Assembly: GCF_013344475.1 (NCBI RefSeq)
Contig: NZ_JABUOU010000010.1
Location: 62,001 to 126,000 of the forward strand
DNA from: Martelella limonii
Lineage (GTDB): Bacteria; Pseudomonadota; Alphaproteobacteria; Rhizobiales; Rhizobiaceae
Length of the DNA stretch: 64,000 nucleotides
Reading direction: 5' to 3'
Part shown: positions 4,587 to 11,725 of the stretch, piece after piece
Position numbering within the stretch: the stretch's first letter is position 1
Layout: each line of letters begins with the position of its first letter
Made by a program: the position numbers and the translations under genes
Notes under the pieces: generated by a model
Databases searched by the model: none
Told to the model about the DNA's origin: nothing
What the model saw: only the letters and a program-made list of their open reading frames with translations

Positions 4587-5594
4587 TCAACGGGCGCTCA
4601 TCGCGTTCAGCCATTCATCGATCCAGATCTGACGGTTCTCGGCAATCGTCTCCGGCGAAAACTGAAGCGTCTTTTCGGGCTTCACCGCATTTTCGAAGGC
4701 TGCGGGCAGCGGATCGGTGGTCGGGGCGACCGGCATCATCCAGTTATGGGTCGGGATCGCATCCTGAAAGCCTGGCGTCAGGATGAATTCGAGAAAGGAG
4801 CGCGCAAGCTCCGGATCGTCGGCCATCGCCGTCATCGCGGCAACCTCGATCTGGATATAGAGCCCGTCCTTGAAATCGATCGCCTTGTAGCGGTCGCTGT
4901 TTTCCTCGATCTCGTGATAGGCCGGCGAGGTGGTGTAGGAAAGCACCATCGGCGCCTCGCCGCTGGTGAACAGGCCATAGGCCTCCGACCAGCCGGGAGC
5001 GACGGTCAGGATCCGGTCGGACAGTTTTTCCCATTGTGCGGCGGCATCATCGCCATAGACGGCCTTCATCCACAGCAGCATGCCGAGCCCCGGCGTCGAT
5101 GTGCGCGGATCCTCGATCACCAGCTTCTGGTCGGCCGGACCATCGATCAGCTCGTCCAGCGTCGAGGGCGTGTTCGAGATGCTCTTTGTGTCGTAGACGA
5201 TATCGAAATAGCCATAGTCGAAGGGCACGAACACATCATCTGCGAAACCGCCGGGGATTGCGGCGGCCTCTGTTGCAACGCCGGACTTTGCGAAAAATCC
5301 GGTTTCCTTCGCCTCGTGGATGAGGTTGTTGTCGAGGCCGAGAACGATATCGGCGGGGCTCGACTTGCCTTCGAGCTTCAAGCGGTTGAGGAGCGCAACG
5401 CCGTCGGCAACGCTCACGAATTTGAGGGTGCAGCCGCACTCGGCTTCGAATGCCGTCTTGACCAGAGGGCCCGGCCCCCATTCGGCATCGAAGCTTTCAT
5501 AGGTATAGACGGTCAGCACCTTTTCCTCGGCTGCAGCGGCCGGCAGGGCAGCGAGCGTTGCAAGGGCTGCAATGGCAAAAGCTGTGCGGGTCAT
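4587..5594 (-). CDS. thiB: Thiamine-binding periplasmic protein
   Basis: Substrate-binding protein of the thiamine importer. It has 335 residues with a signal peptide ending near LAALPAAAA. The mature N-terminus [10 protein letters not shown] is the characteristic ThiB opening, followed by a type-2 periplasmic-binding fold with a family-typical Cys pair (ECGC). Later segments ([33 protein letters not shown]) match the ThiB ligand pocket region, where aromatic residues stack on the thiazole and pyrimidine rings. A very strong ribosome-binding site, AAAGGAGG, lies 9 bases before the ATG. It can be hidden in a hairpin (5598-5640), which fits control by the upstream riboswitch. Confidence 0.93.
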
Positions 5595-5597
5595 GAT

Positions 5598-5640
5598 GAC
5601 GCCTCCTTTTTATTCGATAACAGAATGGGAAAAGGGCGTC
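5598..5640 (-). promoter_or_regulatory. Ribosome-binding-site sequestering hairpin (riboswitch expression platform)
   Basis: GACGCC (5598-5603) pairs with GGCGTC (5635-5640) and CTTTT (5606-5610) pairs with AAAAG (5630-5634). This encloses the whole thiB Shine-Dalgarno sequence in the stem. The position between aptamer and start codon is where a translational OFF switch would sit. Confidence 0.6.
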
Positions 5641-5647
5641 TGGCGCG

Positions 5648-5730
5648 TCTAATCCCTCCGCCGGTGCTAGCCGGATCAGGTTCCTCGGGTTGGCCTCAGG
5701 CCTCTCAGCGACAATCGCACCCCGTTAGAG
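5648..5730 (-). ncRNA. TPP riboswitch (THI element) upstream of thiBPQ
   Basis: Read on the minus strand, the segment contains the conserved THI-box blocks GGGGTGC, CTGAGAGG, ACCTGATCCGG and CACCGGCGGAGGGA in the correct order. The flanks TCTAA (5725-5729) and TTAGA (5648-5652) can close the P1 stem. TPP riboswitches bind thiamine pyrophosphate and switch off biosynthesis and transport genes. The location ahead of thiB is the expected one. Confidence 0.95.
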
Positions 5731-5960
5731 CTGATCCACACCTATCGCGGCGCCCATGCCATTGCAAGAGGCGCCCGATTTGAAAAAATGGCCCGGAGAC
5801 ATTAGGTAAAGGGCGCGTCCGGCGCGCCGGATGCAACATCGTCGTCATGCAAAGATAAGCGTGTCGGCTCATCCTTCAGGGGGCGAAAGCGCTCTGGAAA
5901 CCGGAAACGGCGTGGTCGCAAGGCGTCCGCGTGCAGTGTACAAAGGAAGGAGCACACGAA

Positions 5961-6773: not shown

Positions 6774-8393
6774 ATGAAGAGACGAACCTTTCTGGCCCAG
6801 ACAGCGGTTGGCGCACTTGCATTGTCCGGTGTTGCCGGCACGGCGCTTGCGCAGCAGGCTGTCGAACCAGGAAAGATGCCTGAGGCGAACGCCACCGTCG
6901 ATGCCGGTGGTCCGCCTCCTGACGCCTTCAATTTCGACAAGCTTACGGAGCAGATGAAGGCCGCGGCATCACAGCCCTATGAGGAACCTTCCCAGGAGGT
7001 TCCAGCACCTTTCAATGACCTGCAATATGATGACTACCGCGCGATCCGCTACGATCCCAACAAGGCGATCTGGCGTGATCAGTCGGATTTCCAGCTGCAG
7101 GCCTTTGCGCTCGGCTGGCTGTTCAAGACGCCGGTCGACATCTACGAGGTTGCCGATGGCGAAGCCGAGAAGCTCGTCTTCACCGGCGATGACTTCATCT
7201 ATCGCGAGCCGCTGAATGTCGACCAGTTCCATGGCGTCAAGCTGCCGGGCGTGGCAGGCTTCAGGATCAACTATCCGCTCAACCGGCCGGAAGTCTCCGA
7301 TGAGCTGATCTCGTTCCTCGGCTCGTCCTATTTCCGTGCGCTCGGCCAGGGCAATCTTTACGGGCTTTCGGCGCGGGGCCTTGCGGTCAACACCGCGACG
7401 AGCCAGGGCGAGGAATTTCCGCGCTTTTCGGCGTTCTACATCATGCGGCCCGCGTCTGAGAACGACAAGATCACGGTGTTCGCCGCGCTCGACGGTCCGA
7501 GCGTGACCGGCGCCTATCGTTTCGTGATCACGCCGGGCAAGAACACCCGCATGGATGTGACGGCGCGACTCTTTTTCCGGAACGATATCGAGCGTCTGGG
7601 CGTTGCTCCCATGACATCGATGTTCCTGTTCGGGCCGGCCAATCATCATGCCTTTGATGATTACCGCGAACGGGTGCATGACAGTGAAGGTCTCAAGATT
7701 GTCCGGGCCGACGGGACGGAGTTGTGGCGTAACCTGCAGAATGCAAAGTCGCTCGCCAATTCCTTCTTCGGCGAAACCAATCCGCGCGCGTTCGGTCTCT
7801 ACCAGCGCCACCGCGAATTTGCGGATTACCAGGATGCCGAGGCCCATTACGAACGCCGCCCGTCACTCCTGGTGGAGCCGGTCGGAAATTGGGGCAAGGG
7901 AACGATCTCTCTGGTCGAAATCCCGACGGACAAGGAAGTCAACGACAACATCGTTTGCTTCTGGCAGCCCGAAAGCCCCGCCAGGAAGGGCGGTTCCGCC
8001 GAATTCGGATACCGGCTGACCTGGGGTACGATCGAAGAGGATCAGGGGCGTCTCGCCCGCGTGATCGATATTCGAAGCGGCGAGGGCGGTGTTTCCGGCG
8101 TCGCCAACAAGGACGATAACGTGCGCAAGCTCGTTGTCGATTTTGCAGGCGGGCCGCTCGATGACATGGCACCCGGTTCGGAACTTCAGGAGCGCCTGCA
8201 CATTACCAATGGAGAGATCGTGCATTCAACGGTGTCTTCTGTCAGGGGCCAGGGTGTCTGGCGGCTGGCGATAGACGTGAAGCCCGCCGGGGATGCACCG
8301 GTGGAAATTGTAGCGGCTCTGACAGACGGAAGCCGCGATGTGAGTGAAGTATGGTTATATCAGTGGAGACAAGGCGATGACCAACCAGATTAA
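6774..8393 (+). CDS. opgG: Glucan biosynthesis protein, OpgG/OpgD (MdoG) family, Tat-exported
   Basis: Periplasmic protein for osmoregulated periplasmic glucan (OPG) synthesis; family members shape or branch the beta-glucan released by OpgH. The N-terminus has a twin-arginine signal (KRRTFLAQTAVGALALSG) with cleavage near ALAQQA. A Tat signal is a feature of OpgD rather than E. coli OpgG, so OpgD is an alternative name. The mature part contains the MdoG pattern YDDYRAIRYDPNKAIW and segments such as VAGFRINYPLNRP. Length (539) is normal. The downstream small ORF overlaps its stop by 17 bases, and opgH and opgC follow. Confidence 0.9.
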   Translation: MKRRTFLAQTAVGALALSGVAGTALAQQAVEPGKMPEANATVDAGGPPPDAFNFDKLTEQMKAAASQPYEEPSQEVPAPFNDLQYDDYRAIRYDPNKAIWRDQSDFQLQAFALGWLFKTPVDIYEVADGEAEKLVFTGDDFIYREPLNVDQFHGVKLPGVAGFRINYPLNRPEVSDELISFLGSSYFRALGQGNLYGLSARGLAVNTATSQGEEFPRFSAFYIMRPASENDKITVFAALDGPSVTGAYRFVITPGKNTRMDVTARLFFRNDIERLGVAPMTSMFLFGPANHHAFDDYRERVHDSEGLKIVRADGTELWRNLQNAKSLANSFFGETNPRAFGLYQRHREFADYQDAEAHYERRPSLLVEPVGNWGKGTISLVEIPTDKEVNDNIVCFWQPESPARKGGSAEFGYRLTWGTIEEDQGRLARVIDIRSGEGGVSGVANKDDNVRKLVVDFAGGPLDDMAPGSELQERLHITNGEIVHSTVSSVRGQGVWRLAIDVKPAGDAPVEIVAALTDGSRDVSEVWLYQWRQGDDQPD

Positions 8394-8553
8394 TGGGTCA
8401 GACCATAAGACTGAATTCAGCCGGTTTCTCCCGGCTTCAGCGCCGCTCCCCATGCCCGAGCAGTTGCTCGAGCGTCCGCGCCATCAGGGCGTGATCGCGA
8501 CGATCCTGTCGCCGGTCATGCTTTGGCAGCGTCCGCGCTCGGCACGGCTTTAG
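8377..8553 (+). CDS. Small 58-residue protein between opgG and opgH (function unknown)
   Basis: The start overlaps the 3' end of opgG (stop at 8393), suggesting translational coupling, and a GGAGACAAGG stretch precedes the ATG. The protein is soluble-looking, Pro- and Arg-rich, with a central SAPLPMPEQ segment and a basic end (LWQRPRSARL). The SAPLPMPEQ part recalls the Pro-rich N-terminal leaders of longer OpgH/MdoH proteins, while the OpgH encoded next begins directly with a membrane helix. It may therefore be a separated OpgH N-terminal segment or an independent small partner. This is inference; I do not recognise a named family. Confidence 0.6.
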   Translation: MTNQINGSDHKTEFSRFLPASAPLPMPEQLLERPRHQGVIATILSPVMLWQRPRSARL

Positions 8554-8557
8554 GACA

Positions 8558-8580
8558 ATTGCGGGCCGTCAGAGGCCCGC
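8558..8580 (+). promoter_or_regulatory. GC-rich hairpin after the small opg ORF
   Basis: ATTGCGGGCC and GGCCCGCAAT pair perfectly around a short loop just after the small ORF stop. No T-run follows, so it may protect the 3' end of the upstream mRNA or pause transcription before the terminator-like hairpin at 8602. Confidence 0.45.
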
Positions 8581-8601
8581 AATGAGCGGCAAGACATGCG
8601 A

Positions 8602-8636
8602 GCGGGGCTGTGTTCCTCCCAGGGCAGCCCCGCTTT
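8602..8636 (+). terminator. Terminator-like hairpin between the small ORF and opgH
   Basis: GCGGGGCTG pairs perfectly with CAGCCCCGC and is followed by TTT. It would end or attenuate the opgG transcript about 80 bases before opgH, so opgH-opgC may have its own promoter or be expressed at a lower level. Confidence 0.6.
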
Positions 8637-8717
8637 CCACGTTTAAAGGGTAGAAATCCGGTATTCTCTGCCAACCGCGACCCCAAAGGTGCGGTTTTGC
8701 GGTTTTAAGGATCACCA

Positions 8718-10529
8718 ATGCTGGCCTTCAGGCGCATATTCTCAGTCGTATTCGCAGCCATCGTTGCCATCGCGGCCTCGCGCCTTGCGATGGACGTTTT
8801 CTTTGCCGACGGCACGGACTGGGTGGATTTCGTCCGGATTTTCCTGTGCGCATCGACAGCGGCATGGATCGCGTGGGGTGCTGCGCTCGGCATTGGCGGC
8901 TTGATCGGCCGGCGGATGAAGACGCCGCCGCGCGCTTCGCTTTCCGAAAGCGGCCAGGCGGCGCGCACCGCGATCCTCATCCCGGTCTACAACGAAGATC
9001 CGCGGGCAACCTTTTCTTCGGCGGCCGCGATGGCGCACTCGCTGGCAAAAACGCCCCATGCCGGGCTTTTCGATATCGCCATCCTCTCCGACAGCCGGGA
9101 TCCGGAGGTGATTGCCGATGAGGAGCAGTGGTTCCTCGGGCTCCACGCCGAAATGCCGCAGGGCATCGGCGCCTTCTATCGCCGCCGCAGCGACAATACC
9201 GGTAAAAAGGCGGGCAATATCGGCGATTTCGTGCGCCGCCACGGCGCAAAATATACCTATATGCTGATCCTCGATGCCGACAGCCTGATGGAAGGCGAGA
9301 CCATCGTTGAAATGCTGCGGCGCATGGAAGCCGAGCCGCGGCTCGGCCTGTTGCAGACGCTGCCGAAGATCATTGCATCGAAAACCTGGTTTGCGCGGGC
9401 GCTGCAGTTTTCCGCAAGTCTGTTTTCGCCGATCTTTACCCGCGGTTTGGCGCGGATGCAGGGCAATGAGGGGCCGTTCTGGGGCCACAATGCGATGGTG
9501 CGCACCGTTGCATTCGCCGAAAGCTGCGGCCTGCCCGCGCTGACCGGCGCCCCGCCGTTCGGCGGCCATATTCTCAGCCATGACTATGTCGAGGCTGCCC
9601 TTCTGACCCGTCAGGGCTGGATCGTGCGCGTCGATGCCGACCTTGAGGGGTCCTATGAGGAAGGCCCGCAGAACGCCATCGACTATGCCAAGCGCGACCG
9701 GCGCTGGTGCCAGGGCAATCTCCAGCATATCCGGCTGCTGACCGCGCCGGGTCTGCATGGCTGGAACCGGTTCACCTTTTTCCAGGGCGTGATGGCCTAT
9801 CTGAGTTCGCCGCTGTGGATGGCTTTTATCGCCGCCTCTATCGTGGCGCCCCTGTTTGCGCCGGCGATCGACTATTTCCCGAGCCCCTATCTGCCGGCGA
9901 TCTTCCCGCGCGCGCAGACGGCGCTTGCCGTGACGCTGCTGGTCGGCGTCGGCGGTCTTCTGATCGGCCCGAAGTTGCTGATTGCGCTCCGCTCCGGCGT
10001 AACCGGCGAAGCGCGCAGGTTTGGCGGCTTCTTCCGGGTGTTGTTCTCGACGCTTGCGGAAATCATCTGGTCGTCGCTGCTCGCGCCGATCACGCTCATG
10101 TACCAGAGCCGCTCCGTGCTGCAGGTGATTTTCGGCATGGATGGCGGCTGGCCGTCTTCGGATCGCGAAGGCCAGTCGCTCCGCTATGGCCAGGCCTTTG
10201 CCGCAAGCTGGTGGATCGTGCTGACCGGCATCATCATGATGGTAGGCGCATGGACGCTGGCGCCGGACTTGTTCTGGTGGCTGACGCCGATCGCCGTGCC
10301 GCAGATCCTGTCGCCGTTTCTGATTGCCGCGAGCTCCTCGCCGAAGAGCGGGCGCATCGCCTTTGCGATCGGACTTTTCCGGACGCCCGAAGAACAGAAG
10401 CGTCCGCCGATCATGCTGGAACGCGATGCCGTCCTCGCGCGTTGGCAGGAAAAGCCTGCGATCGACCGCGATGCCTATCTGGTCGGAGAGCAGAAGGACG
10501 CGGCGGAAACCGCTTATTCGGCGTTTTAG
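8718..10529 (+). CDS. opgH: Glucans biosynthesis glucosyltransferase H
   Basis: Inner-membrane GT2 glucosyltransferase that makes the linear beta-1,2-glucan backbone of periplasmic glucans from UDP-glucose. The 603 residues show two N-terminal membrane helices, the nucleotide-binding IPVYNED segment (~88-94), the DADS metal-binding motif (186-189), the HDY acceptor-side motif (288-290) and RDRRW (326-330). Several membrane helices follow. It is shorter at the N-terminus than E. coli MdoH (~850 residues), lacking the long cytoplasmic leader. opgC starts 11 bases downstream. Confidence 0.93.
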   Translation: MLAFRRIFSVVFAAIVAIAASRLAMDVFFADGTDWVDFVRIFLCASTAAWIAWGAALGIGGLIGRRMKTPPRASLSESGQAARTAILIPVYNEDPRATFSSAAAMAHSLAKTPHAGLFDIAILSDSRDPEVIADEEQWFLGLHAEMPQGIGAFYRRRSDNTGKKAGNIGDFVRRHGAKYTYMLILDADSLMEGETIVEMLRRMEAEPRLGLLQTLPKIIASKTWFARALQFSASLFSPIFTRGLARMQGNEGPFWGHNAMVRTVAFAESCGLPALTGAPPFGGHILSHDYVEAALLTRQGWIVRVDADLEGSYEEGPQNAIDYAKRDRRWCQGNLQHIRLLTAPGLHGWNRFTFFQGVMAYLSSPLWMAFIAASIVAPLFAPAIDYFPSPYLPAIFPRAQTALAVTLLVGVGGLLIGPKLLIALRSGVTGEARRFGGFFRVLFSTLAEIIWSSLLAPITLMYQSRSVLQVIFGMDGGWPSSDREGQSLRYGQAFAASWWIVLTGIIMMVGAWTLAPDLFWWLTPIAVPQILSPFLIAASSSPKSGRIAFAIGLFRTPEEQKRPPIMLERDAVLARWQEKPAIDRDAYLVGEQKDAAETAYSAF

Positions 10530-10540
10530 GGATAAGATAG

Positions 10541-11725
10541 TTGAGTGCGATGAAGTCCAATGCCGGCGTGGCGCCGGCTCCGGTGAAGAGCAAGCGCGAT
10601 CCGCGCATCGATGTCCTGCGCGGTCTGGCGCTGATCATCATCTTCATCGACCATGTGCCGGAAAACCTTTATTCCTACTACACGATGCGGATGTACGGCT
10701 TTGCCGATGCGGCGGAAGCCTTCGTTCTGATCTCGGGCATTTCGGCGGGTCTTGCCTATAGCGGGCGGTTCGTTGCGGGCTCGATGATGGAGACCGCAGT
10801 GCGGATCTGGCGCAGGGCCGGCACCATTTACGGCGCCCATATGTTCACCACGCTCGTCGTCCTCGCGCTTGCTACGCCACTGCTGGTGGCATTCGGCATG
10901 GAGGCATTTGCGGAGGAAAGCGGGCTTGCCTGGCTCTGGAAGGCGCCGTTCTCGACGATTACCGGCTCTGCCCTGCTCAGCTACCAGATCAGCTATTTCA
11001 ATATTCTGCCGCTCTACATCGTGCTGTTCCTGGTGTTGCCGGGCCTGCTTTATCTCGGCATGCGCAGCCTGTCGCTGATGCTGGCGGTCTCGGCCGCGAT
11101 CTGGCTTTTCACGCGCTATCTCGGCTACCAGATCCCGGCCTATCCGGCCGACTGGGCATGGTATTTCAACCCTTTCTGCTGGCAGCTTCTGTTTGCGATC
11201 GGGCTCGCGGTCGGCATTTGCCATCGCCGCGGCAAGGCCTTTGTTCCGTTTCATCCGGTGCTTTATGCGGCGGCGGTCGCCTTTGTGGTCTTCGCCCTCT
11301 ACTGGCGGCTGAGCGGAAACTACAATTTTCCTTTCCCCGATTTCATGCCGCAGTTCATCGCCGACACAGGCAAGGAGCGTCTGAGCCTGCCGCGTATCGC
11401 GCATATTCTGGCGCTCGCCTATATCCTGATCTATCTGCCGGGCCTGCGGACATTTCTGGGCCGGCCGGTGTTCGAGCCGATCAATGTCATGGGCCGCGCG
11501 AGCCTTACGACCTTCGTGACCGGCTCGCTGATCGCCTTCGCGCTGCAGATCTTCCGGGAAATGGTCGGTACCACGCTTTTGCAGGATACGCTGCTGTTGC
11601 TTGCGGGCCTCGTCCTCCAGTATCTCGCCGCGCGCAATTCCCTCTCCCGCGCGGCACGGGGCAAGGCGGTGATGCCGCCCGCGATCACGCCGCCGCCCGG
11701 TACGGCCGTCAAGCGGTCAAGCTGA
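10541..11725 (+). CDS. opgC: OpgC, periplasmic glucan succinyltransferase-type membrane protein
   Basis: A polytopic inner-membrane protein of 394 residues with about ten hydrophobic segments. It opens with the OpgC signature RDPRIDVLRGLALIIIFIDHVPEN. In Rhodobacter sphaeroides OpgC adds O-succinyl groups to periplasmic glucans and is encoded in an operon with opgG, opgI and opgH, so its position here fits. A TTG at 10541 has the better spacing from AGGGAT; an ATG three codons later (10550) is the alternative start. The 3' end overlaps the convergent efflux gene by 9 bases. Confidence 0.88.
   Translation: MSAMKSNAGVAPAPVKSKRDPRIDVLRGLALIIIFIDHVPENLYSYYTMRMYGFADAAEAFVLISGISAGLAYSGRFVAGSMMETAVRIWRRAGTIYGAHMFTTLVVLALATPLLVAFGMEAFAEESGLAWLWKAPFSTITGSALLSYQISYFNILPLYIVLFLVLPGLLYLGMRSLSLMLAVSAAIWLFTRYLGYQIPAYPADWAWYFNPFCWQLLFAIGLAVGICHRRGKAFVPFHPVLYAAAVAFVVFALYWRLSGNYNFPFPDFMPQFIADTGKERLSLPRIAHILALAYILIYLPGLRTFLGRPVFEPINVMGRASLTTFVTGSLIAFALQIFREMVGTTLLQDTLLLLAGLVLQYLAARNSLSRAARGKAVMPPAITPPPGTAVKRSS

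Follow-up and report, generated by a model that had tools for sequence, protein, structure and literature searches.

The OPG locus of Martelella limonii, where OPG stands for osmoregulated periplasmic glucan, raises the question of what a short open reading frame (ORF) of 58 codons is doing between opgG and opgH. The window analysed here is a stretch of 64,000 nucleotides (nt) from contig NZ_JABUOU010000010.1 (positions 62,001 to 126,000), and all coordinates below are counted within it. The small ORF sits in the order opgG-[ORF]-opgH, followed by opgC, all on the same strand. A preliminary description of this locus had listed an opgG/opgD-type gene, a 58-residue ORF carrying SAPLPMPEQ, opgH and opgC, and all four ORFs were found where it had placed them, on the + strand; it had also supposed that the small protein might be either a regulatory segment split off from OpgH or a novel OPG component. 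In this study, sequence comparison and structure modelling suggest that the ORF is probably the Martelella opgI, and that its small protein would supply in trans the leader that is fused to the core in long OpgH proteins.

The 58-codon ORF, an opgI-like gene delimited by its reading frame and its conservation in the genus (8377 to 8553, +; ATG 8377 to TAG 8553), is a real, conserved gene, beyond chance, because it is found in all Martelella genomes, the other frames are stopped and its codons evolve under constraint. A six-frame search covering 61 genomes detected it in 13/13 Martelella genomes (E 1.9e-35 to 6.2e-8), all of which also have opgH, and the best match outside the genus (G033, E 0.0026) likewise lies between opgG and opgH. 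The preliminary description had made its proposal depend on conservation of the frame and on homologues in related opg loci: the frame is open in all 13 Martelella species, with stops in both alternative frames in all 13, and a separate ORF was found in 76 of the 124 opgG-adjacent loci described below. With the first six codons excluded, the median ratio of nonsynonymous to synonymous substitution rates (dN/dS) is 0.31 (62 of 78 pairs, dS 0.05-2.5), and differences from the window fall at the three codon positions in the numbers 165/93/295, showing that the small ORF evolves under purifying selection. Although its frame is open already from GTG 8344 (69 codons), ATG 8377 is the start common to the genus, and GGAG at 8365-8368 lies 8 nt upstream of it. 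This start overlaps the end of opgG (8393) by 17 nt, in agreement with the overlap that the preliminary description had stated, and translation of the small gene is probably coupled to that of opgG through the overlap. The gene has its own stop codon, 164 nt 5' of opgH, and is thus not in cis with the glucosyltransferase. It is annotated as a hypothetical protein in Sulfitobacter faviae, and in Qingshengfaniella alkalisoli the PLSDB gene table, incomplete by design, lists nothing at this place, where an open 62-codon ORF with the motif is present.

What, then, does the small protein resemble? Sequence searches of Pfam, NCBIfam and PDB gave no match for the window protein, and for 24 of its relatives nothing beyond scattered matches at chance level turned up. 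One conserved element was found in the small proteins, around MPxQ; in an alignment of these 24 separate proteins M26 and P27 are invariant, and Q29 is conserved in at least 90% of them. In the window this element covers codons 18-33 of the small gene (8428 to 8475, +; LPASAPLPMPEQLLER) and has the form PPxxPLxMPxQxL, in common with the N-terminal leaders of long OpgH. Many other alphaproteobacterial OpgH proteins bear PPExPLAMPxQxL ahead of the first membrane helix and start at an equal place relative to opgG. In the long OpgH (MdoH) proteins of Chelatococcus (L162), Methylobacterium (L166), Bosea (L153) and Sphingomonas (L071), the same element occupies the same position relative to the opgG stop and the first membrane helix, but there the leader is fused in cis, whereas in Martelella it is a separate gene. 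The OpgH of the window, by inspection and alignment with relatives, has its first membrane helix at the very start and no leader, in agreement with the preliminary description. The profile of the 24 separate proteins matched that of 27 long-OpgH leaders with 94% probability (E 1.5e-7, 20 columns). In addition, a hidden Markov model (HMM) of 65 separate proteins gave 21 of the 37 long OpgH tested a higher score than any of 740 shuffled controls, with the match always directly before the core (whole-protein E-values 2.1e-5 to 14, 11 of them at 0.01 or below), and none of 15 paralogs rose above those controls. The likeness of SAPLPMPEQ to long-OpgH leaders that the preliminary description had proposed is thus upheld, and by these comparisons the motif of the small proteins and the leader at the N-terminus of long OpgH are homologous.

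The distribution of the two forms was followed across an uneven sample of OpgH loci, collected by OpgH-query searches and from best-of lists. At E 1e-30, 48 of 121 relatives yielded an OpgH. Upstream of the 29 OpgH with at least 48% identity to that of the window (L032-L060), a separate ORF of roughly 50-120 codons was present in every case, preceded by opgG in 28; the contig of the remaining locus, L046, ends before opgG. The opgG stop was located by script in 28 of 31 loci (two or fewer named plasmid loci among them), and the small ORF begins within opgG in 19 of these 28, with 17 or 4 nt left to the opgG end; as start the script chose the closest ATG, and some of the remaining loci have an upstream ATG at 17 nt. 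From a contig scan, the 80 best of 585 confirmed stretches were kept, and none of these 80 came from R. sphaeroides. After removal of 6 identical OpgH from 148, and with E. coli set aside, the census comprised 142 distinct OpgH loci. Adjacent opgG was present in 124 of them, with a separate ORF in 76, a fused leader in 33 and neither in 15, while the 18 OpgH without adjacent opgG included 17 with neither form and one with a separate ORF, the contig-edge locus L046; these 17 include L138, a copy of L139 at a contig edge, and L139 itself does have the separate ORF. In this sample, most opgG-linked OpgH loci therefore have the motif, whether as an ORF of its own or fused, and most of the other loci lack it. 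None of 83 loci with a separate ORF also shows the strict leader pattern in OpgH. A further search of one family, of Rhodobacteraceae type, found OpgH in 83 of 395 genomes (E 1e-120), and all of the best 30 of these 83 loci have a separate ORF in the expected position (E 2.7e-4 to 8.1e-12; best HMM match elsewhere in these loci, 7.3 bits), with 28 of the 30 being new and two, L225 and L239, repeating HMM training rows. In Caulobacter, one report (PMC11389396) describes opgH with no other opg homolog, and an OpgH lacking the E. coli-type N-terminal extension, which fits a link between leader and opgG. As a separate observation, in L050 (1203-1470, G025) the small-ORF stop abuts the opgH start in the same frame, with one stop codon between them.

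A FastTree phylogeny of 103 OpgH cores, from which every second separate-form row was omitted, unites the 39 separate-form rows in a single fork (local support 100%). The only other row in this fork is the short-type OpgH of Aureimonas phyllosphaerae (L147), with neither opgG nor a small ORF adjacent, and as judged from this tree the separate form is confined to one OpgH clade. The 37 long-form rows make up one side of a branch with a support of only 31, due to the long branch of Sphingomonas L071, and 36 of them fork with a support of 90.

It was reportedly the 2002 work of Cogez and colleagues on Rhodobacter sphaeroides that put opgI on the map. The operon opgGIH-opgC of this species (Cogez et al. 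2002, as cited in PMC10514313) has the gene order of the Martelella locus, and the place of the small ORF matches that of opgI, the I in opgGIH, so that the suggestion of a new OPG component proved mostly wrong. According to a 2023 paper (PMC10514313), R. sphaeroides opgI and opgH together complement delta-opgH E. coli, which is the behaviour expected of a two-part OpgH. Of the preliminary idea of a split-off OpgH regulatory segment, the split-off part is thus sustained by the leader homology, and the regulatory part is not; the reported complementation points to a part of the synthase. In our sample, locus L227 holds opgG, a 66-codon ORF with APPAAPCAMPKQQLE, opgH and opgC, in the published order opgGIH-opgC. 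This ORF, which could also have a start giving 75 codons, shares 4 nt with the end of opgG and thus likewise starts over the opgG stop, and an HMM trained without L227 finds it at E 2.9e-7. The L227 ORF, which we presume to be R. sphaeroides OpgI, and the Martelella protein have the motif in common and no Pfam match, but no significant pairwise similarity outside the motif. The link between the window protein and the L227 ORF is by profile and place, and by both the 58-codon ORF appears to be the Martelella counterpart of opgI. A literature search found neither a link between OpgI and the OpgH leader nor an explanation of OpgI, though the 2002 primary paper may state one.

Inspection of the small protein showed neither a signal peptide nor a clear membrane helix, so that it is probably cytoplasmic, and both ends of OpgH are cytoplasmic in E. 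coli according to PMC3723540. AlphaFold2 was applied to the fused OpgH of Chelatococcus composti (L162) with a 36-row alignment, giving a model with a mean predicted local distance difference test (pLDDT) score of 90.1. Leader residues 11-50 have pLDDT 82-94 in blocks of ten, although apart from a short helix at 35-38 and a single bridge residue, T27 of MPTQ, they are largely coil; a leader that is confident yet coil has the look expected of a peptide docked on the core. In a second model from the same rows with the first 47 residues removed (pLDDT 89.0), the isolated bridge residues 296, 320 and 328 were kept and G316, in the CGLP loop ahead of FGGHILSHD, was lost, and block confidence fell from 87-92 to 81-86 around residues 298-337 and down to 76-77 around residues 198-217. 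Compared with each other, the two models suggest docking of the leader on the glucosyltransferase domain. In fold, this fused OpgH most resembles cellulose synthase BcsA and cyclic glucan synthase, and a PDB sequence search with OpgH returned nothing at E 1e-5. Following the assignment in GT2 enzymes, we take the putative catalytic base to lie next to the CGLP loop. OpgI would thus bind the glucosyltransferase domain of OpgH non-covalently, the leader, or OpgI in trans, would pair with the CGLP loop beside this putative base, and OpgI may be needed for, or tune, glucan backbone synthesis together with OpgG.

Several results weigh against OpgI as a detached leader. The HMM that separates 21 long OpgH from shuffled sequences does not do so for the other 16 of 37, and the conserved part spans only about 16 residues. 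For two curated MdoH models, the Sulfitobacter small protein gave a match that lies in the first 45 model positions (E 0.024 and 0.083), while the other nine small proteins of the same search gave none, and these matches carry little weight because unrelated models match other small proteins as well or better (amidase 0.003, enoyl-CoA hydratase 0.058). A BLASTP comparison of the window protein with the L227 ORF was not significant (E 20), and L227 itself is presumed to lie on chromosome 1 of R. sphaeroides 2.4.1. The putative docking site is read from DSSP assignments that differ between the two models, both made for a relative, and bridge residues 432 and 443, in a low-confidence periplasmic loop, also vanish in the leaderless model. 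By the tests applied, 15 of 124 opgG-adjacent OpgH show neither form: eight loci with a longer ORF of 129-162 codons at the equal place (starts chosen by us), four with long N-termini lacking the strict pattern (L066, L075, L081, L082), two betaproteobacterial OpgH (L067, L069) and Azospirillum argentinense (L065, 2707-4683), which has no N-terminal leader and PLMMPVQNLEWW near the OpgH C-terminus. To judge from L065, the leader module could perhaps switch to the opposite end of OpgH.

Alternative explanations of the small ORF were weighed against the same data. It could be a leader peptide in an attenuator, with translation of the short ORF and downstream hairpins controlling opgH expression and the peptide itself being functionless. 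OPG operons are osmotically controlled, and the 164-nt gap between small gene and opgH (8554 to 8717, +) is filled by two hairpins (8558-8583 and about 8600-8636) with strong folding (z -3.2). However, conservation of the protein motif reaches far outside the genus, and elsewhere the motif is fused to OpgH; the gap, variable in length and sequence within the genus, measures 31-176 nt across 13 species and has fold energies of -0.51 to -0.16 kcal/mol per nt, and the first hairpin is single-copy in the genome, so that no conserved RNA element is apparent; an attenuator, which we hold to be very unlikely, was rejected on the single-copy first hairpin and the variable gaps across the genus. It is also very unlikely that the ORF is a translational coupler that merely carries ribosomes from opgG to opgH, because a coupler would not keep a motif that is also fused to OpgH and the gap to opgH is as long as 231 nt (L057), even though the start close before the opgG end in the 19 of 28 loci mentioned above is what such a role would ask for.

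OpgI might also act outside the synthase as a separate regulator, for instance one of cell division in the manner of the N-terminus of E. coli OpgH. According to PMC3723540, the N-terminal domain of E. coli OpgH (residues 1-138) is an FtsZ inhibitor and its segment 83-101 is sufficient for division inhibition, but alanine changes in, or deletion of, this segment left inhibition in place. The segment contains SSMFPDPW (L062), and counted by eye the P82-to-M89 spacing equals the P-to-M spacing of the leader motif, with W94 downstream; the domain also lies before the first membrane helix as the leader does, but it is much longer, and a comparison by hhalign of 27 alphaproteobacterial leaders with 12 gamma- and betaproteobacterial OpgH N-termini was not significant (0.5%). 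Moreover, the motif is absent in 17 of the 18 OpgH without adjacent opgG, which a role in the synthase fits better than a separate regulator, so that we consider the latter unlikely. OpgI as a detached leader of OpgH, acting within the synthase, thus remains our preferred explanation, and the resemblance of the leader to the division-inhibiting stretch of E. coli, seen by eye, is a lead rather than a finding.

The loci with the longer ORFs between opgG and opgH (L157, L167, L169, L170, L173, L175, L179 and L180) form one fork in the OpgH tree (97), and these ORFs carry M-x-x-Q near their end and are possibly a long OpgI, though hhalign found no significant similarity to short OpgI and leaders (0.8% and 0.2%). 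By eye, most longer OpgI-like proteins and gamma- and betaproteobacterial N-termini have P, M seven residues on, a polar residue at +3 and a large hydrophobic one at +5. A sweeping proposal, which we regard as rather doubtful, is that a single docking peptide, P-x6-M-x2-[Q/D/E]-x-[L/I/W], is essential to all OpgG-linked OPG synthases and attaches to the glucosyltransferase domain next to the catalytic-base loop. Depending on the lineage, it would form the N-terminus of OpgH, sit at the opposite end (Azospirillum L065) or be encoded by a gene of its own (short or long OpgI), and the FtsZ-inhibiting peptide of E. coli OpgH would be the same peptide in a second role. If this were true, synthase assembly and division control would compete for one peptide.

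The other genes of the locus are of known families. The opgG/opgD-type gene (6774 to 8393, +) encodes a 539-residue MdoG-family protein (PF04349, E 1.2e-182) with a start, MKRRTFL, that looks twin-arginine-like by inspection. The opgH (mdoH) gene (8718 to 10529, +) encodes a glucosyltransferase of 603 residues, the short form without leader (NCBIfam MdoH NF003959, 858 bits), and opgC (10541 to 11725, +; Pfam OpgC_C PF10129, E 5.9e-95) starts at TTG 10541 or ATG 10550. Elsewhere in the genome (G000:C22:365636-366259, -), one PF10091 (glycoamylase) match lies in a 2857-codon frame, which we assume from its architecture to be cyclic glucan synthase-like; a PF10091 match was found in 5 of 13 Martelella genomes, as against the small ORF and opgH in 13 of 13. 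A thiamine pyrophosphate (TPP) riboswitch (Rfam RF00059, 67.4 bits) at 5636-5734 (-) lies upstream of an ORF for an ABC-type substrate-binding protein (4587-5594, -), which probably serves thiamine uptake.

If OpgI is the detached leader of OpgH, the OPG synthase becomes a two-part enzyme open to testing. In that case a motif of about 16 residues would become a mutable target in any OpgH, and a small gene now annotated as hypothetical would gain a name.

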